Part shown: positions 6,677 through 37,533 of the stretch, in pieces
Position numbering within the stretch: the first letter of the stretch is position 1
Layout: every line of letters starts with the position of its first letter
Assembly (NCBI RefSeq): GCF_019880225.1
Contig: NZ_CP082284.1
Location: forward strand, 1,674,001-1,738,000
Length of the DNA stretch: 64,000 nucleotides
From: Halobaculum rubrum
GTDB lineage: Archaea > Halobacteriota > Halobacteria > Halobacteriales > Haloferacaceae
Direction: 5' to 3'
Notes under the pieces: generated by a model
The model's database searches: none
Told to the model about the DNA's origin: nothing
Seen by the model: the letters and a program-made list of their open reading frames with translations, nothing else
Made by a program: the position numbers and the translations under genes

Positions 6677-7420
6677 ATGACCATCGAACCGGAGGAGGCC
6701 CTCCCGACCGAGGGGCTCGTCTGCGTCGTCGGCGCCGGCGGCAAGAAGACGACCCTGTACACGCTGGCGAACAGCCTCGACCGCGCGGTCGTCACCGCGA
6801 CGGTCCGCATCCCGATATTCGACGACCACGTCGCGCGAGTCGGCGTCACGGGGGACCCGGTCGACGCGCCGGCGGAGGCGAAGGCGGGCGACTTCCCGCT
6901 CGGCCTCGTCCCCGAGCGCGAGCGCGACGACCGCTATCTCGGCTACGATACCGCCGTCGTCGACGACCTCGCGGCCGCCCACGACGGGCCGGTGCTCGTG
7001 AAGGCCGACGGCGCGCGCATGCGCGAACTCAAGGCCCCCAGCGACCGCGAACCGCAGATCCCCGCGAGCGCCGACGCCGTGGTCCCGATCGCCTCCGCGC
7101 ACGTCGTCGGCGAGCCGCTGACCGACGAGCACGTTCACCGCCCCGAGCGAGTCGCGGCGGTCGCGGGGATCGACGAGGGCGAGGCGATCACCGCCGGTAC
7201 GGTCGGTCGCGTCCTCGCGTCCCCCGCGGGTGGGCTGAAGGACGTACCTCCCGGAGCCGAGACGGTCGCGCTCGTCAACAAGGTGGACGACGCCGACGAC
7301 GAGGCCGTCGCGCGCGAGGTCGCCCGCGCGGCGTTCGACGCGGACGACGCGGGGCGGCTCGACCGCGTGGTGCTCGCGGCGCTCGGCGAGGGGCGGGTGG
7401 TCGACGTGCTCGACGCGTAG
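6677..7420 (+). CDS. yqeC: YqeC-family protein (selenium/molybdenum cofactor accessory)
   Basis: A 247-residue protein that matches the YqeC family: a P-loop-like VGAGGKKTTLYTLA near residue 17, then VKADGARMRELKAP near residue 108 and EPQIPASADAVVPI. In bacteria YqeC genes travel with selenium-dependent molybdenum hydroxylases and with MocA/MobA-like nucleotidyltransferases; the exact reaction is unproven. Here it meets mobA tail to tail with no spacer, and an AOR-family oxidoreductase follows. No molybdenum hydroxylase of the xanthine dehydrogenase type is seen in the window, so its client may be the AOR homologue or lie elsewhere. Confidence 0.8.
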   Translation: MTIEPEEALPTEGLVCVVGAGGKKTTLYTLANSLDRAVVTATVRIPIFDDHVARVGVTGDPVDAPAEAKAGDFPLGLVPERERDDRYLGYDTAVVDDLAAAHDGPVLVKADGARMRELKAPSDREPQIPASADAVVPIASAHVVGEPLTDEHVHRPERVAAVAGIDEGEAITAGTVGRVLASPAGGLKDVPPGAETVALVNKVDDADDEAVAREVARAAFDADDAGRLDRVVLAALGEGRVVDVLDA

Positions 7421-8113
7421 CTATCGCGGGGCCAACGCCTCGGCGGCCGCCTCGAACTCCTCGCGGGTGTTGAGGTTCTCGAAGCTCCGCTCGTCGACGC
7501 CGAGGGCGTCGAGCTCGTCGGCGCCGACCTCCGCGTACTCGAGGTCGAAGAGGGGCGCGACGATCTTGCGGTCGCCCCGCGCCAGCGCGGCGTCGCAGGC
7601 GTCGGCCATCGCCCCGGCGCGGTAGGCCGCGTGGGTCGTCTGGAACCACTCGTCGTCGACCCGGGGGACGACGGCGTCGAGGCCGCCGCCGTCGATCCGG
7701 TCGAACAGCGCGTCGACGAGCGCGGGGTCGACGAACGGCATGTCGCAGGCGACGACGAACGCGGGGGCGTCCGCGCCGGCGGCGTGGTCCACGTCGTCGC
7801 CTCCGCCGCCCGCGCCGTCGTCGGCCGCCCACCCCTCGACCCCCCGGAGCACCGTCCGGATGCCCGCCATCGGCCCCTCGTCGGGGTCGGGGTCCTCGGC
7901 GTAGCGGACGGGGTTCGAGTACCCGACCATCGCGTTCTCGATGTCCGCCCGCTGGTCGGCGCGGCAGTTGACGACCAGGCGGTCGGTCGCGTCGGCGAGT
8001 CGGTCGGCGACGCGGCGGATCATGGGGACACCCGCGAGGTCGGCGACGGCCTTGTCGCGGTCGCCGAAGCGGGTCGAGCGCCCGCCGGCGACGACGGCAG
8101 CGTACCGTGGCAT
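7421..8113 (-). CDS. mobA: Molybdenum cofactor guanylyltransferase-like (MobA)
   Basis: A 230-residue GT-A-fold nucleotidyltransferase. The N-terminal motif VVAGGRSTRFGDRDKA (near residue 7) is the NTP-binding loop. EGPMAGI and CDMPFVDPALVDAL (metal-binding Asp region) follow in the order expected of MobA, which attaches GMP to molybdopterin. The loop has GGRSTRFGDRDK in place of the usual GGxSxRMGxDK. A CTP-using MocA-type enzyme, or a cofactor for the neighbouring AOR homologue, are alternatives. It is antisense to its neighbours and converges directly on yqeC. Confidence 0.82.
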   Translation of the reverse strand: MPRYAAVVAGGRSTRFGDRDKAVADLAGVPMIRRVADRLADATDRLVVNCRADQRADIENAMVGYSNPVRYAEDPDPDEGPMAGIRTVLRGVEGWAADDGAGGGGDDVDHAAGADAPAFVVACDMPFVDPALVDALFDRIDGGGLDAVVPRVDDEWFQTTHAAYRAGAMADACDAALARGDRKIVAPLFDLEYAEVGADELDALGVDERSFENLNTREEFEAAAEALAPR

Positions 8114-8223: not shown

Positions 8224-9987
8224 ATGACACGGACCCGGGTGCTCCGCGTCGACCTCTCGGCCGGGACAGCCACGTTCGAGACGGTCCCGGAGGAGTGGCG
8301 GCGCCGCTATCTCGGCGGCAAGGGGCTCGGCGCCCGGTACCTGTACGACGAGCTGTCGCCCGGGGCCGACCCGCGCGGTCCCGAGAACCTCCTCGGGTTC
8401 ATGCTCGGCCCGCTGTCGGGCGCGCTCCCCGGCGAGTCGCGCTACGCCGCGGTGACGAAGTCGCCGCTGACGGGGGCGTTCCTCGACTCCTACTCCGGAG
8501 GGACGTTCCCGGACCGGCTGGCGGGGTCGCTGCCGGACTGTCTCGGCGTGCTCGTGACGGGCGCGGCCGACGAGCGGACGGCGCTGGTCGTCGGCGACGG
8601 GGACCCCCGACTCGAAGCCGCTGGCGACCTCGCGGGCGCCGACACCGTCGAGACGGCGGAGGCGTACCCCGACGCGGCGGTCGCGTGCGTCGGACCGGCC
8701 GGCGAGCGGGAGGTCGCGTACGCGACGATCGCTTCCGACGCCGGCGACCACCACGCCGGCCGCGGCGGCGCGGGCGCGGTGCTGGGCGCGAAGAACCTCA
8801 AGGCGGTCGTCGCGCGCGGCGACCCGCCGGACGTGCCCGACGAGCTCGCGGCGCTGCGCGAGACGTACGCCGACGCGTTCGCCGCCGACGACGCCGGCAA
8901 GTGGCAGACGGCGGGGGAGACGCTGGAGTCGATCGACTTCGCCGCCGAGGTGGGAGTGTTGCCCGCGAACGGCTGGCGCGACACCGCCAACGAGGTCGAC
9001 GGCATCGGGATCGAGGCGGCCGCGGCGGCCGCGGTCGGACGCGAGCATCCCGAGGACGACGTTCCCGGCGGCTTCCGCGTCGAGACAGACGACGGCGAGA
9101 CGGTCCCCCGCGGGGCGGCGCCGATGACGCTCGGCGCCGGGTTGGGGATGGACGACTTCGACGCGGTCGCGGCGCTGGGTGAGGCGTGTGACCGCCTCGG
9201 CGTCGACGTGATCACCGCCGGCAACGCCGTCGCGTGGGCGGTGCGCGCCGGCGAGGTCGACTTCGAGTTCGGCGACGAGGACGGCGCGCGCGAACTGATC
9301 GAACGGATCGCCCGCCGCGCCGACGGCGACGACCTCGCGGACGCGCTCGCGGAGGGCGTCGACGCCGCCGCCGAGCGCTACGGCGGCGACGAGTACGTGC
9401 CGACGGTGAAGTCGATGGAACTGCCCGCCTACGACCCCCGCGGCGCGATCGGGATGGCGCTGGCGTACGCGACCGCCGACCGCGGCGGCTGTCACCGCCG
9501 CGCCCGACCCATCGAGGAGGAGGTGTTCCGCGAGGACTGGGACACCGCCCGCCGCGTCGAGGCGGTCGTCGGCGCACAGAACGCCCGCGCGGTGTTGTGG
9601 AGCCTCGTCGTCGACGACTTCGCCGGCGAGACGCTGTGGGACGACCTGGGCGCCGAGTGGCTCGACGCGCTCGGGGTTCCGCACGACGACCTCCGTCGCG
9701 TCGGCGACCGCGTGTGGACGCTCGTGCGGTTGTTCAACGCCCGCGAGGGGTTCGACCGCGACGCCGACGTCCTCCCGCCGCAGTTCGCCGAGCCGCTCCC
9801 GGCCGGCGAGGCGCCCGCGGCCGGCCGCGCCGTCGACGGCGAGGCGTTCGAGCGGCTGCTCGACGCCTACTACGCCGCCCGCGGGTGGGACGACCGGGGG
9901 CTCCCGACGGCCGAGCGCTGTCGCGCGCTGGAGCTCCCGACCGACGCGCCCGATCGACGCACCGACCGCCCGCGAGCCGAGGACTGA
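8224..9987 (+). CDS. Aldehyde:ferredoxin oxidoreductase homologue lacking Fe-S ligands
   Basis: A 587-residue member of the AOR family. The N-terminal pterin-binding domain is clear (RRYLGGKGLGARYLYDEL near 27, KSPLTGAFLDSYSGG near 79, HAGRGGAGAVLGAKNLKAVV near 177), and the C-terminal ELPAYDPRG near 399 also fits. Canonical members carry CxxCxxxC plus a fourth Cys for a 4Fe-4S cluster. Here the only cysteines are at 106, 155, 322, 423 and 566, none in a CxxC, and the fourth-ligand region reads NARAVLWSLVVD. Electron transfer to ferredoxin by the usual route should be lost. The ATG at 8224 is favoured over GTG at 8218 because a TATA-like cttatcg is centred about 28 bases upstream. Confidence 0.85.
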   Translation: MTRTRVLRVDLSAGTATFETVPEEWRRRYLGGKGLGARYLYDELSPGADPRGPENLLGFMLGPLSGALPGESRYAAVTKSPLTGAFLDSYSGGTFPDRLAGSLPDCLGVLVTGAADERTALVVGDGDPRLEAAGDLAGADTVETAEAYPDAAVACVGPAGEREVAYATIASDAGDHHAGRGGAGAVLGAKNLKAVVARGDPPDVPDELAALRETYADAFAADDAGKWQTAGETLESIDFAAEVGVLPANGWRDTANEVDGIGIEAAAAAAVGREHPEDDVPGGFRVETDDGETVPRGAAPMTLGAGLGMDDFDAVAALGEACDRLGVDVITAGNAVAWAVRAGEVDFEFGDEDGARELIERIARRADGDDLADALAEGVDAAAERYGGDEYVPTVKSMELPAYDPRGAIGMALAYATADRGGCHRRARPIEEEVFREDWDTARRVEAVVGAQNARAVLWSLVVDDFAGETLWDDLGAEWLDALGVPHDDLRRVGDRVWTLVRLFNAREGFDRDADVLPPQFAEPLPAGEAPAAGRAVDGEAFERLLDAYYAARGWDDRGLPTAERCRALELPTDAPDRRTDRPRAED

Positions 9988-9996
9988 CACCCAGCG

Positions 9997-10980
9997 ATGC
10001 CAGACAAGATCGACCTCGACGAACTCGACGTACAGCCCGACGACGACGAGCGACCCAACCGTGGCGACTGGTTCTGGGGCGACGACGCCGGCAGCGAGCC
10101 GTCCGGGGGAGCCGACGCGGCCGCGATCGACGACGACGGGACCGCGACTCCCGGCGACGAAACCGCGGCCGCCGGTGACGGAGCCGCGACCGACGACACC
10201 GGCTCCGCCGACGACGCCGCCGGTTCCGGTCCCGACGACGGCGCCGACACGGCGGGCTCGACCGACGGCTGGCGCTCGGGGGCCGCCCGCGCGGACGAAC
10301 TGGGCGCGAACGAGCCGGAGCCGCCGGCGTACGACGACGATCTGGGCGCGGATCTGGAGTCGGCGACGCCGCGGGTGCCGCACGCGGACGACGACAAGCC
10401 CGTCGGCATCCCTCGGGAGTCCGGCGGCGGCGGCGGCGTCTCGGCCGACGCGCGCGACGAGGAGACGCAGCAACAGCCCGAGGCGACGGGTCCCCACGGC
10501 GAGACGAAAAGCGACATGACGATGGCGCTGTCGTACCGGGCGGTCCGGTCGCTGTCGAGCCTCCACGCCGCGCTCGCGGACGCCGAGACGTGGACCGACT
10601 ACGTCGGCATCGTCGGCGACGTGGACGCCCACGTGATCAACAAGTACCAGCGCGACAACCGGCTGGACTTGGACTTCTTCAACGGCACCGGCACCGGCCC
10701 GAGCGAGCGCCTCGAGGAGGTCGGCCCGACCTCGATGTTCTACGCCGACCGGATGGTGCTGGTCGGCGTCGAGTCGGCGGGCGAGCGCGTGTGGGCCGAG
10801 CGCGCCGGCTGGGAGTTCGTCCCGCTGGCGGAGGCCGCCGAGGCGTCGGGATGGGCGCTCGACGGAAGCGAGGACGAGCGCAGCGAGTCCGCGACGCGAG
10901 CGGGGGATGAAACGACCCGCGAGCAGGGCGACGTGGATCGTGACGAGGACGCCATCCCGGACGACGGCGACGCGACCTGA
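9997..10980 (+). CDS. Acidic two-part protein of unknown function, partner of AOR homologue
   Basis: A 327-residue protein that starts 9 bases after the AOR homologue and is probably in its operon. Residues 1-170 are low-complexity and very acidic, apparently disordered apart from RPNRGDWFWGDD near 20. A compact conserved-looking domain follows (about 173-285; MALSYRAVRSLSSLH, INKYQRDNRLDLDFFNGTG, GPTSMFYADRMVLVGV). A second acidic tail ends it. I recognise this only as a haloarchaeal uncharacterised family. No signal peptide, membrane segment or cysteine ligand is present. Confidence 0.7.
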   Translation: MPDKIDLDELDVQPDDDERPNRGDWFWGDDAGSEPSGGADAAAIDDDGTATPGDETAAAGDGAATDDTGSADDAAGSGPDDGADTAGSTDGWRSGAARADELGANEPEPPAYDDDLGADLESATPRVPHADDDKPVGIPRESGGGGGVSADARDEETQQQPEATGPHGETKSDMTMALSYRAVRSLSSLHAALADAETWTDYVGIVGDVDAHVINKYQRDNRLDLDFFNGTGTGPSERLEEVGPTSMFYADRMVLVGVESAGERVWAERAGWEFVPLAEAAEASGWALDGSEDERSESATRAGDETTREQGDVDRDEDAIPDDGDAT

Positions 10981-12535: not shown

Positions 12536-13729
12536 TCAAGTGATCGTGAGCGGGAACGCTCGCTTCTCCCGCGGCGGAACGACGAAGTTGGCCCGTGACT
12601 GGGTGCTGATGAACTCGAGGATGCCGTTGTTCTCGCGGTCGGTGATGTCCGGGTGGTCGTCACGGAGGTACCAGCCGTTCATCGACTTCCGCGTCCGCCG
12701 GAAGTGTGCGAGTTCCCGCTGATAGCTGAGGAAGTGGACGCCGGTCCGACCGTGATCGACGGTGTTGAAGTCCCGACGGAGTACGACCGGTTCGCCGTCT
12801 CGACGGACGCGCGCGACCTTCTCGTGATGGCCGACGCTGCCGTGGTCGCGGGCGTGTTCGCGCACCGCGTCGGCGAACGGCACGTCCGTCCCGAGGTCCG
12901 CCACGTCCTCGGGGGTGAACTCGGGCGAGAACATCTTCCCGACCCGGCTCCCCTCGTCGACGGAGAACCACTCCGGGAGGTCGAACGTGATGTGCGAGAG
13001 GTGGGCGGTGGTGCCGCCCGCCAGCGGACCGTCCCCGATGGCGACGCGGTCCTCGCCGGCCTGCGATCCCTTCCGACCCGAGAAGAACCCCGAGAACATC
13101 GGCGCGTCGGCCTCCAGCCCCTCCACGTCGACGTGCTCCGCGGGCAGCCCCTCGCCGAGGAAGCCCGTCCGGCGGTCGCGGCGGCGAAACACGCCGCCGA
13201 GGGTGTGTTCGACCGGCTCGCCGTTCAGCTCGTCGCGCGAGCCGAACAGCGCGCTCTCGGCGGCCGGGAGATGCGACTGCACGTCCGACTCCAGCACGAG
13301 CATCGCGTCGAACCGCTGGAGCTCCTCGTCGTCGGTGCGGGTGAGCACCTCGGGGTGCTCGATGGGGACGCGTCCGAGCGCGTCGTTGTCGTCGAAGTAC
13401 CGCGACCCCCACGCGAGGGTGTGAAACAGCCCGTCGGGCGCCCAGCCGTACGCCGTCTCCACGGTCCGGAGCGCGCGCTCGACGGTCTCTGCGGCCTCCT
13501 CGGAGGGGTCGCGCTTCAGGTCCAACAGGAGGATCCGTCGGTGACGGGCCTGGAGCTCGTTGCCGTCGGCGTCGCGCCGGAGCACGTCGTTCTGTGCGAA
13601 CTGTCTGCTCGGAACCGGGTGCGGGTTGGCGTCGAGCGGGAGCCCGGGCGGCGCGCCGGTCGTGCAGCCGGCGACGCCGATCCCGGCCGCGACCGCGAGC
13701 TTCCCCAGCATGCTCCGTCGTGACGGCAT
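12536..13729 (-). CDS. Tat lipoprotein related to dye-decolorising peroxidase (DyP)
   Basis: A 397-residue secreted protein. The twin-arginine SRRSMLGKLAVA and lipobox VAGC (Cys22) predict Tat export and lipid anchoring outside the membrane. The C-terminal half follows DyP order: GFFSGRKG at 214 (position of the G-x-x-D-G motif), HLSHITFDLPEW at 243, a candidate proximal His in VGHHEKVAR at 299, RRDFN at 318, and GVHFLSYQRELAHF at 330. The catalytic Asp of GxxDG appears replaced by Ser, so activity may differ. The ATG at 13729 is chosen because a cttttgg box (13756-13762, minus strand) lies 30 bases upstream; GTG at 13744 is the alternative. Confidence 0.7.
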   Translation of the reverse strand: MPSRRSMLGKLAVAAGIGVAGCTTGAPPGLPLDANPHPVPSRQFAQNDVLRRDADGNELQARHRRILLLDLKRDPSEEAAETVERALRTVETAYGWAPDGLFHTLAWGSRYFDDNDALGRVPIEHPEVLTRTDDEELQRFDAMLVLESDVQSHLPAAESALFGSRDELNGEPVEHTLGGVFRRRDRRTGFLGEGLPAEHVDVEGLEADAPMFSGFFSGRKGSQAGEDRVAIGDGPLAGGTTAHLSHITFDLPEWFSVDEGSRVGKMFSPEFTPEDVADLGTDVPFADAVREHARDHGSVGHHEKVARVRRDGEPVVLRRDFNTVDHGRTGVHFLSYQRELAHFRRTRKSMNGWYLRDDHPDITDRENNGILEFISTQSRANFVVPPREKRAFPLTIT

Positions 13730-13861
13730 TCTACGACGTGTCACGGCTCACACGGCCAAAAGCGTTCGGTCGCCGCGGATCCGACGGACCGGGGCGACGC
13801 GTCGGCGACCGTCGACCCCGACACAAACGCTATGCGTCCGCGGACCGAGCGATCCCGTGTT

Positions 13862-14734: not shown

Positions 14735-15367
14735 TCACGTCATCTGCGCGACGATCTCGTCCTCGAACTCGACGAGACCGGCCAGGATCTCCGCGGCCGC
14801 GAGGAACAGCGGTTCGTCCGTCTCCTCCCGGATGTCGGCGACGGCGTCGTCGACCCACGTCATGAGGTGGTTGTCGAGGAACACGCGCTCGTAGCCGAAC
14901 GTCTCGTCTCGCCCCTCGCGCTGTTTGGTGACGAGCCACCGGAGGAACGCCAGCTCGACGGCGACGAAGTCGTTCTCCTCGGGGTACTCCTCGGGCGGCG
15001 TCCACCCGGCGGCGTCGTAGCTGGCCTCGACCTCCGCGAGCCCCTCGCCGATGAACTCCGTGTCCTCGCGGTAGTTCGTCTCGTGCAGCAGGACCGGCGG
15101 GCGCGGGCCGACGAACACCTCGGTGTACTTCCGGCGGAGCTCGGTGTGGAGCTCCTCGACGTCGTCGCTCTCGTGGGCGTCGACGAACGCCCGCACGTGC
15201 TCGAAGCCGGCGTCGAGGTGGTCGTTGACGTTGTCTTCCGGGGTGCGCATGTCGCCCGAGAGGAGATGCGAGAGGAACTCCTCGGTCGGCGCGTCGTGGA
15301 ACACCTCGATACAGAAGTCGATCAGTTCGATCCGGGCGTCGTAGACGGCGAGTTCGTCGGTGCTCAT
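14735..15367 (-). CDS. TorD/DmsD-family chaperone for molybdoenzymes
   Basis: A 210-residue all-helical protein. The YTEVFVGPRPPVLLHETNYRE stretch near residue 85 and the later EENDFVAVELAFLRWLV near 130 match TorD/DmsD/NarJ chaperones, which bind Tat signal peptides and assist molybdopterin insertion. It follows the HdrA/MvhD fusion on the same strand (36 bases apart) and lies across from the Tat-dependent formate dehydrogenase, the obvious client. Start ATG at 15367. Confidence 0.82.
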   Translation of the reverse strand: MSTDELAVYDARIELIDFCIEVFHDAPTEEFLSHLLSGDMRTPEDNVNDHLDAGFEHVRAFVDAHESDDVEELHTELRRKYTEVFVGPRPPVLLHETNYREDTEFIGEGLAEVEASYDAAGWTPPEEYPEENDFVAVELAFLRWLVTKQREGRDETFGYERVFLDNHLMTWVDDAVADIREETDEPLFLAAAEILAGLVEFEDEIVAQMT

Positions 15368-15402
15368 GGTGTCTGTGTGGGTGGGAAGTGGGCGGTCGGA
15401 TC

Positions 15403-17553
15403 TTAACCGTTGTCGAACAGTAACTGCGCGCGGCAGTCGCCGCAGTACTCGAAGACGCTGTGGTCGGCGTCGGGCGCGATCCCCTCGACGAGCCCCCCGA
15501 CCTCCGACTGGATGTGCTCGGCGGAGGCCGCCGAGGTGAACGGGTCGCCGCAGCTGACGCATTCGAGCATCTCGCCGTCGTGGACGGTCTCCCAGCGCGG
15601 GTCGTCGTCGGCGACGGCGCCCTCGCCGGCGGTCCGGTTCTCGGGCAGCCGCGAGAGGTCCAGCCCTTGCTCCATCGTGATCGCGGTCTCGGGACAGCCC
15701 TCCTCGCAGAGCTCGCAGTTGACGCAGTCCTCGTGGTTGAACTGGAGGGTCCCGTCGTTCGTCCGACGGATGGCGTCGGTCGGGCACAGCGTCGAACACG
15801 TCGGCGTGAGGTTGCAGGCGTCGTTCACGGACATCACGCCGAAGTCCTTCAGTCCGCGGATCACCTCGCGCTCGGGCTCGGCGAACTCGAGGAGTCGCCG
15901 CACCGACTCGAGCGTCCAGTCGTGGCTGTTGAACGCGGGGTTGGGCTTGTCCTCGCGGACGACGCCCGTCGCGCGGTGCTCGCCCTCGGGGACGGGCGTC
16001 GGGTCCAGCGTCAGTTCGGTGAACCGGCCGATCTCCTCGGCGAACGCGGCGGGTTCGCGTGGGTCGGGCGCGAAGAACCCGACGCGCTCGCCCAGCCCGA
16101 GATCGCTCGTCGCGCGGTTGAGGCGGTCGACGAGGTCGGCCTTCGGGTCCGGGCCCGAGTGGAGGCAGTCGCCTCCGCAGCCGACGATGGCGACGCCGGC
16201 GGCGCCGGCCGCGAGCGCATGCATGACGTGCCCCTCGCCGACGGTGTCGGTGCAGTTCACCGCCACCGGAAGCACCGGCGGATAGGTGATGTCCTCGCCG
16301 GCGGCCGCGCGGCGGCCGTACTCGTCGAGCGCCGCGGCGGCGCGCTCGTCGCAGGTGAACGCGATCACGGGCGTCTCGATGCCGCCGTCGCCGCCGGTGA
16401 ACGGCCAGATGCCGCCCTCGTCGGTCTCGCGGCTGAGCAGCGCCTCGACCTCGCGGGCGATCCGCTCGTTCGACGGCTCCCGCAGCGACGTCGCGCCCGT
16501 CGGGCACGACGAGGTGCACGCGCCGCAGTTCTCGCAGGCGGTCAGGTCGAACTCCACCTCGTCGACGGCGGGGCGATCGACGGCGTCGTGCGGGCAGGCG
16601 TCGACGCAGGCGGTACAGCCCTGCTGGCCGGACTCGCCCGCGGCACAGACGTCCATCTCCAGATCGAGGTACTTCGGCTTCTCGACCCCGCCCAACAGCG
16701 ACTCCACGGCGGCGATCGTTCCGGCATCGACCGGGCCGGTGTAGTAGCCGATCCGACCGGCCCGCGCGGTCGACGTGCCCGCCGGGTCGACGACCTGATC
16801 GGCGCCGACGGTTCGCGTGACGCCCGAGAGATCGATCGCGTCAGTGGGACAGCAGTCGGTCCACTCGCCCTCCGGGGCGTCCGGGTGGATGTCGACGGGG
16901 CGTCGCGTCACCATGCCGTCGGGACCCTCCTTCACGCACTTCATACAGGAGATACAGTCGTCGGTGACGCGGGCCTCCACCCGCACCTCGAACTCGCCGA
17001 ATCCTCCCTCGACGGCGACGAGCCGGCCGCGCTCGACGCTCACCTCCGAGAGATCCGCGTCGGAATCGGCGTACTCCGCGCCGTCCGCGAGCAGCGTCAC
17101 GTCGGCGGTGTCGGCGAGCGCGGCCGCGGTCTCGGCGTCGCCGACGACGAGGACCTCCTCGCCGGCCTCCCGGGAGACGGTGCGCGTGGCGGCCTCGTAC
17201 TCGATGCCGGTGCGTCGTGCGTTGATCAGTCGCGCGGTCTTGTCCGTGGCGTCGTCGCGCTCGTGGACCCAGCCGGCCCGCTCGCGGTGGTCGACGTAGG
17301 CGGCCGCGTCCGGGTGGAGCCCGTTGCGCTCGACGAGGTCGTCGAACTTCGCCTTGCAGCCGTCGTCGCAGGCGCCCACGATCAGCTGGTCGAGGTCGTA
17401 CTCGTCGATCAGTCCGTCGACGGCGGGGAGCGCGTCCCGGCACAGCTGCTCGGAGGACGCGACCACGTCGACGTCGCGGACTCCGTCGCGGACCGACTCC
17501 AGATCCACGTCGCACGTTCCCCCGCACGAACAGACGAATGCCCCGACGTTCAT
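15403..17553 (-). CDS. HdrA-like / polyferredoxin / MvhD fusion protein
   Basis: A 716-residue cytoplasmic iron-sulfur protein with no signal or membrane segment. Order: an HdrA-type N-terminus with CSCGGTC (8-14) and CDDGC (62-66); a Rossmann-like stretch LVVGDAETAAALADTADVTLL (135-155) that lacks the G-x-G-x-x-G flavin motif; CISCMKC at 200 and CC at 234; two 4Fe-4S sites (CTACVDACP 313, CENCGACTSSCP 340); an MvhD/FlpD domain (NCTDTVGEGHVMHAL 433, VGCGGDCLHSG 458); another Fe-S pair (CNLTPTCSTLCP 580, CVNCELCEEGCP 610); and a zinc-finger-like end (CVSCGD, CGDC). MvhD normally links HdrA to a hydrogenase or formate dehydrogenase. Start ATG at 17553; the upstream TTG is not needed. Confidence 0.8.
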   Translation of the reverse strand: MNVGAFVCSCGGTCDVDLESVRDGVRDVDVVASSEQLCRDALPAVDGLIDEYDLDQLIVGACDDGCKAKFDDLVERNGLHPDAAAYVDHRERAGWVHERDDATDKTARLINARRTGIEYEAATRTVSREAGEEVLVVGDAETAAALADTADVTLLADGAEYADSDADLSEVSVERGRLVAVEGGFGEFEVRVEARVTDDCISCMKCVKEGPDGMVTRRPVDIHPDAPEGEWTDCCPTDAIDLSGVTRTVGADQVVDPAGTSTARAGRIGYYTGPVDAGTIAAVESLLGGVEKPKYLDLEMDVCAAGESGQQGCTACVDACPHDAVDRPAVDEVEFDLTACENCGACTSSCPTGATSLREPSNERIAREVEALLSRETDEGGIWPFTGGDGGIETPVIAFTCDERAAAALDEYGRRAAAGEDITYPPVLPVAVNCTDTVGEGHVMHALAAGAAGVAIVGCGGDCLHSGPDPKADLVDRLNRATSDLGLGERVGFFAPDPREPAAFAEEIGRFTELTLDPTPVPEGEHRATGVVREDKPNPAFNSHDWTLESVRRLLEFAEPEREVIRGLKDFGVMSVNDACNLTPTCSTLCPTDAIRRTNDGTLQFNHEDCVNCELCEEGCPETAITMEQGLDLSRLPENRTAGEGAVADDDPRWETVHDGEMLECVSCGDPFTSAASAEHIQSEVGGLVEGIAPDADHSVFEYCGDCRAQLLFDNG

Positions 17554-17748
17554 CGTCGGAGTCAACGGAGTGGCGCGTATATAGCTTGCGCCGCGAAACC
17601 GCGGGATGGCGTCATCCCGGGTGATCTTTCCGGTAGTTTTAGGGCTGCCAAAATAATTCCGTAACGATCGTGGCGAACATTAATAGGGGATGATTACATG
17701 AACCGGTACGATAGCATCTCAATCAGTGGTGGATGTCAACAAAGAACA

Positions 17749-20700
17749 ATGAGCACGGAACCGGTCTCACTGGACCTAGACAGACGGTCGTTCATGAAGG
17801 CGAGCGCGTTGGCCGGCGCGGTCGCCCTCGGTGGCGGCGGCGCCGGACAGGCGCTGGCGCAAAGCGACGAGGGAGAAGAGGACGGAACGGACACAGATCA
17901 CAACGAGCTGACGAAGACGATCTGTAACTACTGCTCGGTCGGCTGCGGCTTCCACGGCGAGAAGAAGGGCGACGCGTTCGTCGGAATGGAGCCCTGGGAG
18001 GACCACCCGATCAACAACGGGTCGCTCTGCTCGAAGGGCGCCGGCATCTACGAGACGGAGCACTCCGAGAAGCGGCTGAAGTCGCCGATGCGGAAGGTCG
18101 ACGGCGGCTGGGAGAAGCTCTCGTGGGACGAGGCGTACTCCACGGTCGCCGACGAGCTGACCCGGATCAAAGACGAGTACGGGGCCGACAGCACGATGTG
18201 GCTCGGGAGCGCGCACCACTCCAACGAGGAGTCGTACGCGTTCCGGAAGCTCGCGTCGCTGTGGGGCACGAACAACGTCGACCACCAGGCGCGCATCTGC
18301 CACTCGACGACGGTCGCCGGCCTCGCGAACACGTGGGGCTACGGGGCGATGACGAACTCGATCAACGATTATCGGAACTTCGATATGAACCTGATAATCG
18401 GGCAGAACCCCGCCGAGGCCCACCCGATCGCGATGCAGCACATCCTCGAAGGGCAAAAGCGCGGCGGGGACATCGTCGTCGTCGAGCCGCGGTTCACGAA
18501 GACCGCGGCCCACGCCGACTACTTCTACCGCCTGCGTCCCGGCACGGACGTGGCCCTCATGATGGGGGTCATCAAGCAGCTCCGCGACCGCGACGAGCTG
18601 GACGACGAGATGCTCGAGGGGCGCGTGCAGGCGTGGCCGGACGTCGAGAACGACCTCGACGACTACGACCTCGAGACGGTGTCGGACATCACGTGGCTGT
18701 CGACCGACGAGATCGAGGAGCTGACGGATCTCGTCGTCGAGAACAAGCCGAAGATGCAGATCGAGTGGGCGATGGGTGGAACCCAGCACAACAACGGGAC
18801 CCAGAACATCCGCTCGTACGCGATGCTCTCGCTGGGCGCCGGCGCGGCGGCCCAGTCCGGCGGCGGCCTGCAGGTCATGCGCGGGCACGCGAACGTCCAA
18901 GGGGCGACCGACCTCGCGGTCGCGAGCCACATCCTGCCGGGCTACTACTCCGTCGGCTCGCCCGGCTCGTGGCAGTACTGGTGTGACGTCTGGTCGCGCA
19001 CGCCACAGACCTCGGGCACCATCGAGTTCGAGGACCTGTACGAGGAGTACGGGACGATGCCGGCCGACAAGTACGTCCGGCAGTCCACGAACACCGAGAA
19101 CGCCGACGACATCGACGAGTCGTTCCCGGCGGAGCACTCGATGATGTTCCAGAAGGGCCTGACGGTGGCCCGCTGGTTCGACGCCGCGCTCCCGAAGGAG
19201 GAGCGGCTCAACGAGACGCCGATCTACCAGCCGAACCAGCTGAAGGCGGCGATCGTGTGGGGCCACTCGCTGAACTCCATCTCGGAGATGGAGAAACAGC
19301 GGAAGGCGATCGAGAACCTCGACCTGCTGGTCGTGGTGGACGTGTTCCCGTCGGTGGCGTCGGTGCTGGCCGACGTGGACCAGTCGGACACGGAGGTCGT
19401 CCTGCTCGCGGCCTCCAGCCAGTACGAGCACTACCGCTCGCTGACGAACTCCCACCGCGCGACCCAGTGGTCCGAGCCGGTTCGCTCGCCGGGTCACAAC
19501 TCGCGCCCCGACCTGCGGATCATGCAGGAACTCGCCGGTCACCTCGGCATGGGCGAGCACTTCGACTGGGGCTCGGGTGTGGACCTGTACAACGGGAAGT
19601 CGACGTACGAGTCCGTCATCCGGGAGTTCAACCTCGGCATGCGGACCATCGGGTACTGCCAGGACCCCGAGCGCCTCCAGCAGCACCTGGAGTACGACTA
19701 CGCCTTCTCCACTGAGGACGCGAAGGCGCACGCGCCCGGCACGCCCGTCGACGGCGAGTACTGGATGCTCCCGTGGCCGTGCTGGGGCGAGGGGCACCCG
19801 GGGACGCCGATCCTCTGGAACGACGACATGGACCCCAACGACGGGGGTCAGGACTTCCGCGCCCGCTGGGGCACGCAGGCGCCCACGCCCGGCGAGTGGG
19901 ACGAGATGGCGACCGACGAGCCGTACCCGATGCAGGAGACGGTCGACCAGATGGGCGAGGAGGCGGGGCTGAACCTGCTGCGTGACTCCTACGAGCCCGA
20001 CTGGCACGACAGCGAGGTCGAGGGCGTCCCGCAGTACCCCGGCTTCGCGACGACGATGCCGGACGACCCCTCGAACGCGGACGCGCTGACGATCCCGTAC
20101 GAGTACGCGCTCGACCCGGACAGTTCGGTAGCGGACGCGGCCGAGGCGATGAACGAGACGTACGACTGGGCCGACTACGACACGGACTTCTACGGCCAGT
20201 TCGACAACCCGCAGCCGGACGCGCCGACCGGGCGCGGCCGCGCCCGCGGCGTCGTCTGGAGCTTCCTCGACACGACGCCGGTCCACCGCGAGCCGATCGA
20301 GAGCCCGCGGCCGGACCTGGTGGAGCAGTGGCCGTCGAACGGGCAACAGCGGAACTTCTACCGGCTCGATCAGAACAACTCGACGGTCCAGGAGGACTCC
20401 ATGCAGCGGCTCACCGACGCCGGCGCCTTCGAGGAGCAGTCGGGCGACGCCGAGTGGACGATCCTCACGAGCGGCCGCCAGGTCGAACACCAGGGCGGCG
20501 GCTCGGAGACGCGCTCGAACAAACACACCGCCGACCTCCAGCCGCACATGTACGTGGAGATCAACCCGGACATGGCCGAACGGCTGGGTGTCGACGGCGG
20601 CGATCTCGTGGTCGCGTCGACGACCGACCGCGGGTCGATCCTCGTGAAGGCGCGCGTCACCCACCGCCCGAACGACAGCGAGACGTTCTTCCCGTTCCAC

Positions 20701-21021
20701 TGGGGCGGGATGTTCAAAGGCGAGTCGCTGGAGGACCGCTACCCCGAGGGGACGGTGCCGTACGCCATCGGGGAGCCGGTGAACGCGATCACCTCCCGCG
20801 GCTACGACGTGGAGACGCAGATGCAGGAGACGAAGGCGTCGATGGTCCGGCTCCAGCCGGCGACGCCATCGGTGGTCGAGGAGCTGTCGATGCGGCCCGT
20901 CGAGGAGGACGGGCTCTCGGAGAACGTCGTCGACATCGAGTCGTACGAGTTCCCGCAGGACCGCGACGGCTTCGGCCGGCAGAAGGACTTCGACGTCCGC
21001 GACAGCAGCACGGTTCAGTGA
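17749..21021 (+). CDS. fdnG: Formate dehydrogenase catalytic subunit (FdnG-like, Cys type)
   Basis: A 1090-residue Tat-exported molybdopterin oxidoreductase. The signal DRRSFMKASALAGAVALG (11-28) ends near GQALAQ. Next come the 4Fe-4S ligands C59, C62, C66 and C94 and the catalytic Cys184-His185 in QARICHSTTVAG, where E. coli FdnG has selenocysteine. Downstream NPAEAHPIA and MRGHANVQGATD fit formate dehydrogenase-N. It is longer than the usual 1015 residues, with insertions around 680-850. It oxidises formate on the outer face and passes electrons to the following ferredoxin and cytochrome subunits. The ATG at 17749 places the twin-arginine near the end; ATG 17698 would add 17 residues. The upstream 100 bases are AT-rich and divergent from the HdrA/MvhD gene. 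Confidence 0.88.
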   Translation: MSTEPVSLDLDRRSFMKASALAGAVALGGGGAGQALAQSDEGEEDGTDTDHNELTKTICNYCSVGCGFHGEKKGDAFVGMEPWEDHPINNGSLCSKGAGIYETEHSEKRLKSPMRKVDGGWEKLSWDEAYSTVADELTRIKDEYGADSTMWLGSAHHSNEESYAFRKLASLWGTNNVDHQARICHSTTVAGLANTWGYGAMTNSINDYRNFDMNLIIGQNPAEAHPIAMQHILEGQKRGGDIVVVEPRFTKTAAHADYFYRLRPGTDVALMMGVIKQLRDRDELDDEMLEGRVQAWPDVENDLDDYDLETVSDITWLSTDEIEELTDLVVENKPKMQIEWAMGGTQHNNGTQNIRSYAMLSLGAGAAAQSGGGLQVMRGHANVQGATDLAVASHILPGYYSVGSPGSWQYWCDVWSRTPQTSGTIEFEDLYEEYGTMPADKYVRQSTNTENADDIDESFPAEHSMMFQKGLTVARWFDAALPKEERLNETPIYQPNQLKAAIVWGHSLNSISEMEKQRKAIENLDLLVVVDVFPSVASVLADVDQSDTEVVLLAASSQYEHYRSLTNSHRATQWSEPVRSPGHNSRPDLRIMQELAGHLGMGEHFDWGSGVDLYNGKSTYESVIREFNLGMRTIGYCQDPERLQQHLEYDYAFSTEDAKAHAPGTPVDGEYWMLPWPCWGEGHPGTPILWNDDMDPNDGGQDFRARWGTQAPTPGEWDEMATDEPYPMQETVDQMGEEAGLNLLRDSYEPDWHDSEVEGVPQYPGFATTMPDDPSNADALTIPYEYALDPDSSVADAAEAMNETYDWADYDTDFYGQFDNPQPDAPTGRGRARGVVWSFLDTTPVHREPIESPRPDLVEQWPSNGQQRNFYRLDQNNSTVQEDSMQRLTDAGAFEEQSGDAEWTILTSGRQVEHQGGGSETRSNKHTADLQPHMYVEINPDMAERLGVDGGDLVVASTTDRGSILVKARVTHRPNDSETFFPFHWGGMFKGESLEDRYPEGTVPYAIGEPVNAITSRGYDVETQMQETKASMVRLQPATPSVVEELSMRPVEEDGLSENVVDIESYEFPQDRDGFGRQKDFDVRDSSTVQ

Positions 21022-21027
21022 TTCCCA

Positions 21028-21720
21028 ATGGCAACTAACGAAACCAGCAAGCAGGTGATGAGTCAGGGGGTGATGAGCACCGGCGACGGGGCTCGGATCT
21101 TCCCGGACGTCGAAGCCTGCATCGACTGCGGCGGGTGCGTCGTCGCGTGCAAACGCACGTGGGACGTGCCCAGAGACGAACAGCGAATCAGCATCTCGAC
21201 GATGCTGGAGGGCCAGCCCGCCGAGCCGATGGAGCGGTACAACACCAACAGCGGCGGCGCGCTCGGGCAGGAGGGTGCTTCGCCGGGCGAGACGGCGATC
21301 CCGATGCAGTGTTACCACTGCGAGGAGGCGCCGTGCGTCTCGGTGTGCCCGACGGACTCGTTGATCAAGAAGGACGACGGGTTCGTCGACGTGCGCGACA
21401 ACCTCTGTGTGGGCTGTCAGTACTGCCTGTCCGCGTGCCCGTTCGGGGCGCCGCAGTTCCCCGGCTCCGACGATGGCACCGCGCGGCTGTTCGGCAACGG
21501 CGGCACGATGGACAAGTGTACGATGTGCGAGGAGCGCCAGGACGTGGGCAAGGGGCCCGCCTGCGCCGAGGAGTGCGCGACCGACGCGCTGCTCGTGGGC
21601 GACGCCGAGGAGATCTCGAACGAGCTCGACCGGCGCGGCTCCGACTCGTTCTTCAACGGCGTCGCCATGGAGATCATCTTCGGCGAGGACGCCGACGAGT
21701 TCGAGGGGAGCAACGCATGA
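21028..21720 (+). CDS. fdnH: Formate dehydrogenase iron-sulfur subunit (FdnH-like)
   Basis: A 230-residue electron-transfer subunit with four 4Fe-4S sites: CIDCGGCVVAC near 31, CYHCEEAPCVSVCP near 94, CVGCQYCLSACP near 131, and CTMCEE paired with CAEEC near 168-190. It has no Tat signal of its own and would travel with FdnG. Its stop overlaps the next start (ATGA). It carries electrons from FdnG toward the cytochrome b subunit. Confidence 0.88.
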   Translation: MATNETSKQVMSQGVMSTGDGARIFPDVEACIDCGGCVVACKRTWDVPRDEQRISISTMLEGQPAEPMERYNTNSGGALGQEGASPGETAIPMQCYHCEEAPCVSVCPTDSLIKKDDGFVDVRDNLCVGCQYCLSACPFGAPQFPGSDDGTARLFGNGGTMDKCTMCEERQDVGKGPACAEECATDALLVGDAEEISNELDRRGSDSFFNGVAMEIIFGEDADEFEGSNA

Positions 21721-35604: not shown

Positions 35605-37533
35605 ATGACAGACCTCGGTGGCTTTCAGGACCACGTCGCACACGTGGACCTCTCGGCGGGCGACGTATCGTACGCGGGTATCGACGATGAGGACGCGAAG
35701 AAGTATATCGGCGCGCGCGGCCTCGGTGTGAAGTACGTCTTCGAGGCGGGACCGGACGTGGATCCGCTGGGGCCGGACAACCGGCTGGCGTTCATGAACG
35801 GTCCGCTCACGGGGACCCAGACCGTCATGAGCGGCCGGATCGCGGTCGTCACGAAATCCCCGCTGACGGGCACCGTCACCGACAGCCACCACGGCGGCTG
35901 GTCGGGCGCGCGACTGAAGTGGTCCGGCTTCGACGGCCTCGTCTTCGACGGCGCCAGCGACGACCCGGTGTACGCCGTCGTCGAGGACGGCGAGGTCGAA
36001 CTGCGCGACGCCTCCCACGTGGCGGGTGAGGGCGTCCACGACACCATCGACACCCTCGGCGAGGAGGTCGACGGCACCGTCGGCCGCAACGTCTCGGTGA
36101 TGGCGATCGGTCCCGGCGGCGAGAACGGCGTCAAGTACGCCTGCATCATCAACGAGGACGACCGCGCGTCCGGTCGCGGCGGCACCGGCGCGGTGATGGG
36201 TTCGAAGAACCTCAAGGCGGTCGTCGTCAAATCGGGCACCAAGATGCCCAAGCCGGAGAAGCCCGACGTGTTCCAGGAGGGGTATCAGCAGGCGATGCAG
36301 GTCATCCAGGAGTCCGACGTGACCGCGCCCAACGAGGGCGGCCTCTCGTTGTACGGCACGAACGTCCTGATGAACGCGGGCGAGGAGATGGACGGCCTCC
36401 CGACGAAAAACGGGAAGTACACGTCCACGGCCGCGATGCGCGACGCCGAGGGCGCCGACATCGACGCCGAGCGCGTCTCCGGAGAGAACGTCCGCGAGAA
36501 CATCCTCGTCGACGAGCCGACGTGTCACTCCTGCCCGGTCGCCTGCAAGAAGGAAGTCGAGGTCTCGGTGATGCACAAAGGCGAGGAGCTGAACGTCCGC
36601 ACCGAGTCCTACGAGTACGAGTCGGCGTACGCGCTGGGCCCCAACTCCGCACACACCGAGCGCGACGAGATCGCGGTCATGATCGAGCGGTGCAACGACA
36701 TGGGCGTCGACACCATCGAGATGGGCAACATGATGGCCATGGCGATGGAGATGTCCGAGGAGGGCAAGCTCGACGACCTCGACGAGCAGCTCGACTGGGG
36801 CGACACCGAGCGGATGATCGACCTCATCGACGAGGTCGCCCACCGCGACGGCGAACTCCCCGACGCGCTCGCCGAGGGCGCCAACGGCCTCGCAGAGCGC
36901 TTCGACGCCCACGACAACTCGCTGGCGGTCAAGGGGCAGACGATCCCGGCGTACGACCCGCGCTGTATGAAGGGTATGGGCATCGCGTACGCGACCTCCA
37001 ACCGGGGGGCGTGCCACCTGCGCGCGTACACGCCCTCGGCGGAGATCCTCGGCATCCCGCAGAAGGTCGACCCCTACGAGCACGAGGGGAAAGGCGAGCT
37101 GACGGTCACCTTCCAGGACCTGCACGCCATCTCGGACTCGTTCGACATCTGCAAGTTCAACGCCTTCGCCGAGGGGATCGAGGAGTACGTCATGCAGTAC
37201 AACGGCATGACTGGCCGCGACGTGACCGAGGACGACCTGTTCGAGGCGGGCGAGCGGATCTACACGCTCGAGCGCTACTACAACAATCTCAACGGCTTCG
37301 ACGGCGCGGACGACTCGCTGCCCGCGCGGTTCCTCGAGGGCGGTATCGCCGGCCAGGGTGCCTCCGAGGGCGAGTACTGCGAGCTGCCGGAGATGAAAGC
37401 GGAGTACTACGAGGTCCGCGGCTGGGTCGACGGCGTCGTCCCCGACGAGAAGCTCGACGAGCTCGGTATCGACATCGGGCCGGGCACGGGCGTTTCCGCG
37501 GGCGACTCGGGCGTCGCGCCCGCTGACGACTAG
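35605..37533 (+). CDS. Aldehyde:ferredoxin oxidoreductase (canonical AOR family)
   Basis: A 642-residue tungsten/molybdenum bis-pterin enzyme that oxidises aldehydes to acids and reduces ferredoxin. All elements are present: KYIGARGLGVKYVFE near 33, KSPLTGTVTDSHHGGW near 84, GRGGTGAVMGSKNLKAVV near 190, the 4Fe-4S ligands C307, C310 and C314 (CHSCPVACKK), and the fourth ligand C516 in SFDICKFNAF. It is a useful contrast to the ligand-less homologue at 8224. It stands alone with a strong hairpin after its stop. Substrate aldehyde unknown. Confidence 0.9.
   Translation: MTDLGGFQDHVAHVDLSAGDVSYAGIDDEDAKKYIGARGLGVKYVFEAGPDVDPLGPDNRLAFMNGPLTGTQTVMSGRIAVVTKSPLTGTVTDSHHGGWSGARLKWSGFDGLVFDGASDDPVYAVVEDGEVELRDASHVAGEGVHDTIDTLGEEVDGTVGRNVSVMAIGPGGENGVKYACIINEDDRASGRGGTGAVMGSKNLKAVVVKSGTKMPKPEKPDVFQEGYQQAMQVIQESDVTAPNEGGLSLYGTNVLMNAGEEMDGLPTKNGKYTSTAAMRDAEGADIDAERVSGENVRENILVDEPTCHSCPVACKKEVEVSVMHKGEELNVRTESYEYESAYALGPNSAHTERDEIAVMIERCNDMGVDTIEMGNMMAMAMEMSEEGKLDDLDEQLDWGDTERMIDLIDEVAHRDGELPDALAEGANGLAERFDAHDNSLAVKGQTIPAYDPRCMKGMGIAYATSNRGACHLRAYTPSAEILGIPQKVDPYEHEGKGELTVTFQDLHAISDSFDICKFNAFAEGIEEYVMQYNGMTGRDVTEDDLFEAGERIYTLERYYNNLNGFDGADDSLPARFLEGGIAGQGASEGEYCELPEMKAEYYEVRGWVDGVVPDEKLDELGIDIGPGTGVSAGDSGVAPADD

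Follow-up and report, generated by a model that had tools for sequence, protein, structure and literature searches.

The window analyzed here, a 64,000-nucleotide stretch of the Halobaculum rubrum genome, encodes on its forward strand (positions 8224 to 9987, from an ATG codon to the stop) a 587-aa protein of the aldehyde:ferredoxin oxidoreductase (AOR) family that lacks the ligands of the [4Fe-4S] cluster and is referred to below as AORx. Its only Pfam matches are to two domains, AFOR_N (E value of 1.3e-59) and AFOR_C (1.7e-77), which together span the full length of the protein; the FdhD-NarQ domain (PF02634) is absent. AlphaFold modeling, as proposed in an earlier note on this DNA, predicts that the AOR fold is intact (pLDDT of 93.2, pTM of 0.93, TM score of 0.90 to PfAOR, PDB 1AOR), and by fold and homology AORx belongs to the AOR/WOR family. 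Three other AOR copies in the same genome each carry the CxxCxxxC motif. The canonical paralog in the window, used for comparison (35605-37533, forward strand), has intact ligands, C307/C310/C314 and C516, just as the earlier note had read them, and resembles the Haloferax volcanii protein WOR83, whose deposited structure (PDB 9q1t) is like this copy and unlike AORx.

AORx is flanked by genes of molybdenum cofactor metabolism, namely yqeC (6677-7420, forward strand; TIGR03172, above the cut-off) and a divergently transcribed mobA-like gene for a Mo-cofactor guanylyltransferase (7421-8113, reverse strand; TIGR02665, E value of 6.4e-24, below the equivalog cut-off). On the other side, a gene for a DUF7124 protein (9997-10980, forward strand; PF23439, E value of 8.9e-36) starts 9 bases past the AORx stop and is possibly cotranscribed with it. 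A formate dehydrogenase (FDH) module follows 5 to 12 kb from AORx. It includes a NarJ/TorD-type molybdoenzyme chaperone (14735-15400, reverse strand; PF02613, E value of 4.2e-22), an FlpD/HdrA-like iron-sulfur protein (15403-17565, reverse strand), a Tat-type FDH alpha subunit of type d (17698-21021, forward strand; 1107 aa, with an ARICH active-site motif), and an FDH beta-type iron-sulfur subunit (21028-21720, forward strand; FDH3_beta, E value of 2.4e-42, below the cut-off). The best PDB match of the alpha subunit is FdhA (9vap, E value of 2.6e-210), and its match to the Fdh-alpha model (E value of 9e-129) is below the equivalog cut-off. In several genera, the interval from AORx to the FDH module also encodes a DUF7405 protein with a weak match to Dyp-type peroxidases (12536-13744 in the window).

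The five cysteines of AORx (positions 106, 155, 322, 423, and 566) had been noted earlier as forming no CxxCxxxC motif, and none of them is able to ligate an AOR cluster. In the alignment to PfAOR, E277 and V280 occupy the positions of the ligands Cys288 and Cys291, the Cys295 column falls within a loop that is deleted from AORx, and Cys494 corresponds to D464. The shortened loop at the CxxCxxxC site (9052-9117, forward strand), delineated by alignment to PfAOR and 66 orthologs from many haloarchaeal genera, ends in R296-G297-A298, which stands in for E311-Y312-E313 (PfAOR numbering). The ligand loss, which the earlier note had proposed to check across the family, is clade-wide: CxxCxxxC is lost and Cys494 is replaced by Asp in 66/66 orthologs, none of which retains the motif together with a fourth Cys. 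The retention of a cluster through other ligands, or an ordinary AOR with differently placed cysteines, is very improbable. C155 (in 65/66 orthologs) and C322 and C423 (in 66/66) are indeed conserved, but the latter two align with the ordinary PfAOR cysteines C337 and C447, neither of which is a ligand, C155 is located elsewhere in the sequence, Cys is absent from each of the four ligand columns, and the loop is deleted. The substitution of other cysteines for the ligands was accordingly rejected. C155 (codon at 8686 in the window) belongs to an AC(V/I)GPAGE loop and is shared by only 1/5 sister proteins and few other AORs; it may be a thiol of functional use.

Changes at the catalytic site accompany the loss of the ligands. 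In all 66 orthologs, the catalytic Glu313 is replaced by Ala or Gly and the pterin-contacting Asp489 by Trp; in addition, E311-Y312-E313 is replaced by R-G-(A/G), N93 by Tyr, and R182 by His. The RG(A/G)/D464 signature was found in none of the 44 other AORs that served as the contrast set. The cluster ligands are changed jointly with Glu313 and the EYE motif in 66/66 orthologs and in 0/44 other AORs, a pattern that would be expected if redox catalysis had been given up. Among the second-shell residues E313, Y427, H448, and T243, the set is incomplete: T243 and H448 are kept, Y427 is Tyr or Phe, and E313 is lost throughout.

The suggestion that the pterin-binding motifs remain holds for only one of them. 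The first motif (D338-xx-G-x-D, DxxGLD) is kept, and the second one (D489...C494, DxxGLC), which includes the fourth cluster ligand, has given way to W459...D464-D465-F466 (9598-9621, forward strand), with the W and DD present in 66/66 orthologs, so that AORx does not have the DxxGLD plus DxxGLC pair. T243, D338, G341, D343, R430, and H448 are kept, and the invariant residues of the pterin pocket include R76, G95, R186, G188, T243, D338, G341, D343, and H448. Because the bridging Mg2+ is held by main-chain carbonyls at positions 93 and 183, the N93Y and A183H replacements are compatible with both the retention and the loss of the Mg2+-bridged bis-pterin.

The absence of ligands from 66/66 orthologs rules out chance, sequencing error, an artefact, or a pseudogene, as do about 170 near-invariant columns (in an alignment of 54 orthologs) and dN/dS values of 0.14 to 0.29 among near relatives. 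Given these columns and ratios, the AORx clade is under purifying selection. In an AOR tree built after leaving out the trait columns, the clusterless proteins form one clade with 100/100 support, and their sister, with equal support, is a cluster-bearing haloarchaeal clade of 44 to 46% identity; sequence comparison thus indicates that the cluster loss is clade-wide and of single origin. The clusterless form is found in about 220 of the 394 haloarchaeal genomes by the count from a class-wide search, whose intermediate-scoring matches turned out to be clusterless copies with split alignments or members of the cluster-bearing sister clade. No clusterless copies were found outside Halobacteria among those examined in a phylum-wide search; the closest relative there (G576, 42% identity) keeps the cluster ligands and has Y93 and W489 in common with AORx. 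Members of the sister clade (L106, L108, L110-L112, and NMAG_RS18645 of Natrialba magadii) share with AORx Y93, H182, H183, D443, C447, and an aromatic residue at position 489 but, unlike AORx, keep CxxCxxxC, C494, and E313. Since both the sister clade (Y93, H182, H183, and aromatic 489) and G576 (Y93 and W489) are already changed, the remodeling of the pterin site preceded the cluster loss, and the part of it present in cluster-bearing relatives is not specific to the new role. No FDH, yqeC, or mobA genes were found in the neighborhoods of the sister clade; its N. magadii member (NC_013923.1, 262470-264329) is encoded near amidase, agmatinase, and ABC transporter genes.

Among 33 genomes in which the position of AORx is known, an FDH alpha gene lies within 11 kb of it in 28 (a simple model gives a chance expectation of about 2% per genome) and yqeC within ~7 kb in 20. 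In addition, mobA adjoins AORx in L059, L135, L136, L137, L145, L153, and Haladaptatus. The same neighbors recur in varied order and orientation (L059, L135, L136, L145, and L153), such as YqeC-AORx-FDH-MobA in L135, FDH-AORx-MobA-YqeC in L136, and MobA-AORx-YqeC-FDH in L059, and are also seen in the RefSeq annotation of three plasmids. Three FDH architectures are linked to AORx, with varied gene orders: besides the type in the window, other genera have beside it either a 717-aa FdhF-like FDH (TIGR01591, 739 bits against a cut-off of 666) or an FDH of ~1108 aa with an N-terminal extension and a NuoF-like neighbor (816 to 843 bits). AORx is thus genetically linked to FDH and Mo-cofactor genes, as an FDH maturation factor would be. 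Neither FDH nor yqeC was found next to AORx in G006, G049, G057, G294, and 2/5 annotated plasmids. Other genes were also observed repeatedly at these loci. In several genera (L042:5221-5802, L049:4530-5123, and L155:10351), the gene for an unannotated ~195-aa protein with no Pfam match separates FDH from AORx or from yqeC/mobA, and a ~50-aa protein (MCQYCNWAFHDGW...) and a CobW GTPase are repeatedly encoded next to the FDH/AORx locus (L049:3109-3258 and L042 at ~10047), which suggests metal handling.

The cooccurrence of AORx with FDH was evaluated in 40 AORx-positive and 40 AORx-negative genomes, hand-picked from the class search for within-genus contrasts rather than drawn at random. With FDH type bands that were defined only after the matches had been seen, FDHs of type a, c, or d are present in 40/40 AORx-positive versus 9/40 AORx-negative genomes, the 717-aa FDH in 25 versus 4, and the window-type FDH in 21 versus 0, whereas type b (the 47-51% type) showed no association with AORx (13 versus 10 genomes, P = 0.62). 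Of the 20 genera that include both AORx states, 13 are concordant, 4 mixed, and 3 discordant (sign test on these hand-picked genomes, P = 0.02). Four AORx-negative genomes, one of which (L155) has FDH, MobA, and YqeC together, retain the 717-aa FDH, so that AORx is neither universal nor strictly needed.

YqeC is encoded in all 40 AORx-positive and 19 of the 40 AORx-negative genomes and tracks the presence of any FDH more closely than AORx does; its distribution (55/56 haloarchaeal genomes with any FDH type versus 4/24 without FDH) marks it as a separate candidate for FDH maturation. YqeC has been proposed as an accessory protein of Mo hydroxylases (PMC2276186), and its deletion in Clostridioides difficile had no clear phenotype (PMC11448449). 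FdhD, which binds sulfurated bis-MGD (PMC6239281), was detected in 0/80 haloarchaeal genomes by PF02634, including those with several FDHs, and in 0/30 by TIGR00129; both models were positive in 8 control genomes, two methanogens among them. This agrees with a 2023 review, according to which halobacteria have FDH genes and no fdhD, and the proteins that insert the cofactor and sulfurate it had yet to be identified (PMC10609526).

The AOR fold of the relatives of AORx clamps the metal between two pyranopterins. With both the electron wire and the general acid lost, AORx would not be expected to oxidize aldehydes any longer, and the kept fold and first pterin motif, together with the FDH and Mo-cofactor neighbors, suggest that it holds the bis-pterin cofactor and passes it on for FDH. 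The earlier note had left the choice among another acceptor, another reaction, and a non-redox or regulatory homolog; the FDH, yqeC, and mobA neighbors and the lack of FdhD in the sampled haloarchaea favor the non-redox, cofactor-handling side. The preferred reading, held at just under even probability, is that AORx is a non-redox protein handling the bis-pterin cofactor of FDH. A fuller version is slightly more doubtful, namely, that an AOR was converted once, in haloarchaeal ancestors, to a carrier without redox activity, which takes the place of FdhD in assembling the bis-pterin Mo/W cofactor or delivering it to FDHs. AORx would then no longer be an oxidoreductase and would work in the cofactor supply of haloarchaeal FDHs: its fold would bind either the bis-pterin Mo/W cofactor itself or an intermediate close to the MobA step, contact FDH or MobA, and pass the cofactor to apo-FDH. 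It may thereby fill part of the role taken elsewhere by FdhD; sulfuration would more likely be carried out by YqeC, which tracks every FDH type, or by another factor. This role draws on the observed fold, the clade-wide loss of the cluster and Glu313, purifying selection, the linkage to FDH, yqeC, and mobA, and the lack of detectable FdhD. Against this role and the putative cofactor binding stand the loss of the second pterin motif (D489), the four AORx-negative genomes with the 717-aa FDH, the missing association with type b FDH, and the AORx genes that stand alone.

Closeness on the genome does not tell a maturation factor apart from an enzyme of the pathway, and AORx could still be a one-carbon enzyme with a bound Mo/W-bis-pterin whose substrate, formaldehyde or a similar compound, is converted upstream of FDH; electrons would then either not be transferred at all or be donated directly to a partner. 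Genes for a Zn-dependent alcohol dehydrogenase of the glutathione-independent formaldehyde dehydrogenase type, formate-tetrahydrofolate ligase, and FDH are found near AORx in several genera, and glyA in another, which would suit such an enzyme, as would the kept H448, Y427(F), and T243. It is nevertheless unlikely: Glu313, which has been described as present throughout the AORs (PMC12096430), is replaced by Ala or Gly in all 66 orthologs, AORx has neither a cluster nor an alternative redox domain, and mobA and yqeC are unexpected neighbors of a pathway enzyme. A cofactor-free pseudoenzyme, which would assist FDH structurally or in its regulation or would sense the supply of cofactor, appears to be equally improbable. 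The loss of catalytic and ligand residues from an otherwise strongly conserved protein and its linkage to FDH are consistent with this possibility, but the many invariant residues of the pterin pocket speak against it, and the association of one AORx with three FDH architectures that have different partner subunits is more readily explained by a common supply step than by a subunit. That AORx assists the canonical AOR copies is not favored, because many AORx-negative genomes carry AOR paralogs and the genes linked to AORx belong to FDH.

AORx resembles the tungsten AORs (PfAOR, 1AOR; 9mqx; CaAOR, 9g7j; WOR83, 9q1t) in its two Pfam domains, full-length fold, first pterin motif, T243, Y427(F), and H448 and differs from them in the absence of the [4Fe-4S] ligands and Glu313, in the W...DD that replaces the second pterin motif, and in the linkage to FDH, yqeC, and mobA. 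Its likeness to the chaperone-sulfurtransferase FdhD/FdsC is limited to the proposed role, the handling of the bis-pterin cofactor for several FDHs; the fold and sequence are unrelated, and no FdhD was detected in the haloarchaeal genomes examined. The BamB and YdhV clades are likewise AOR-family members whose chemistry is no longer that of aldehydes and in which the conserved second-shell residues are missing (PMC12096430), but their metal has an additional Cys ligand and BamB functions in an iron-sulfur electron chain, whereas AORx lacks any cluster ligands. No report of the clusterless clade was found in the mainly open-access literature searched, and AORx appears to represent a form of the AOR family that is new and distinct in function. 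A bis-pterin cofactor with a nearby Fe4S4 cluster has been listed as a shared feature of AORs and WORs in a 2025 review of W enzymes (PMC12096430) and a 2026 WOR classification (PMC13328260); a clusterless clade in over 200 haloarchaeal genomes contradicts the generality of Fe4S4 in this family. AORx also provides a named candidate for how haloarchaeal FDHs may obtain their cofactor without FdhD, the question raised in PMC10609526.
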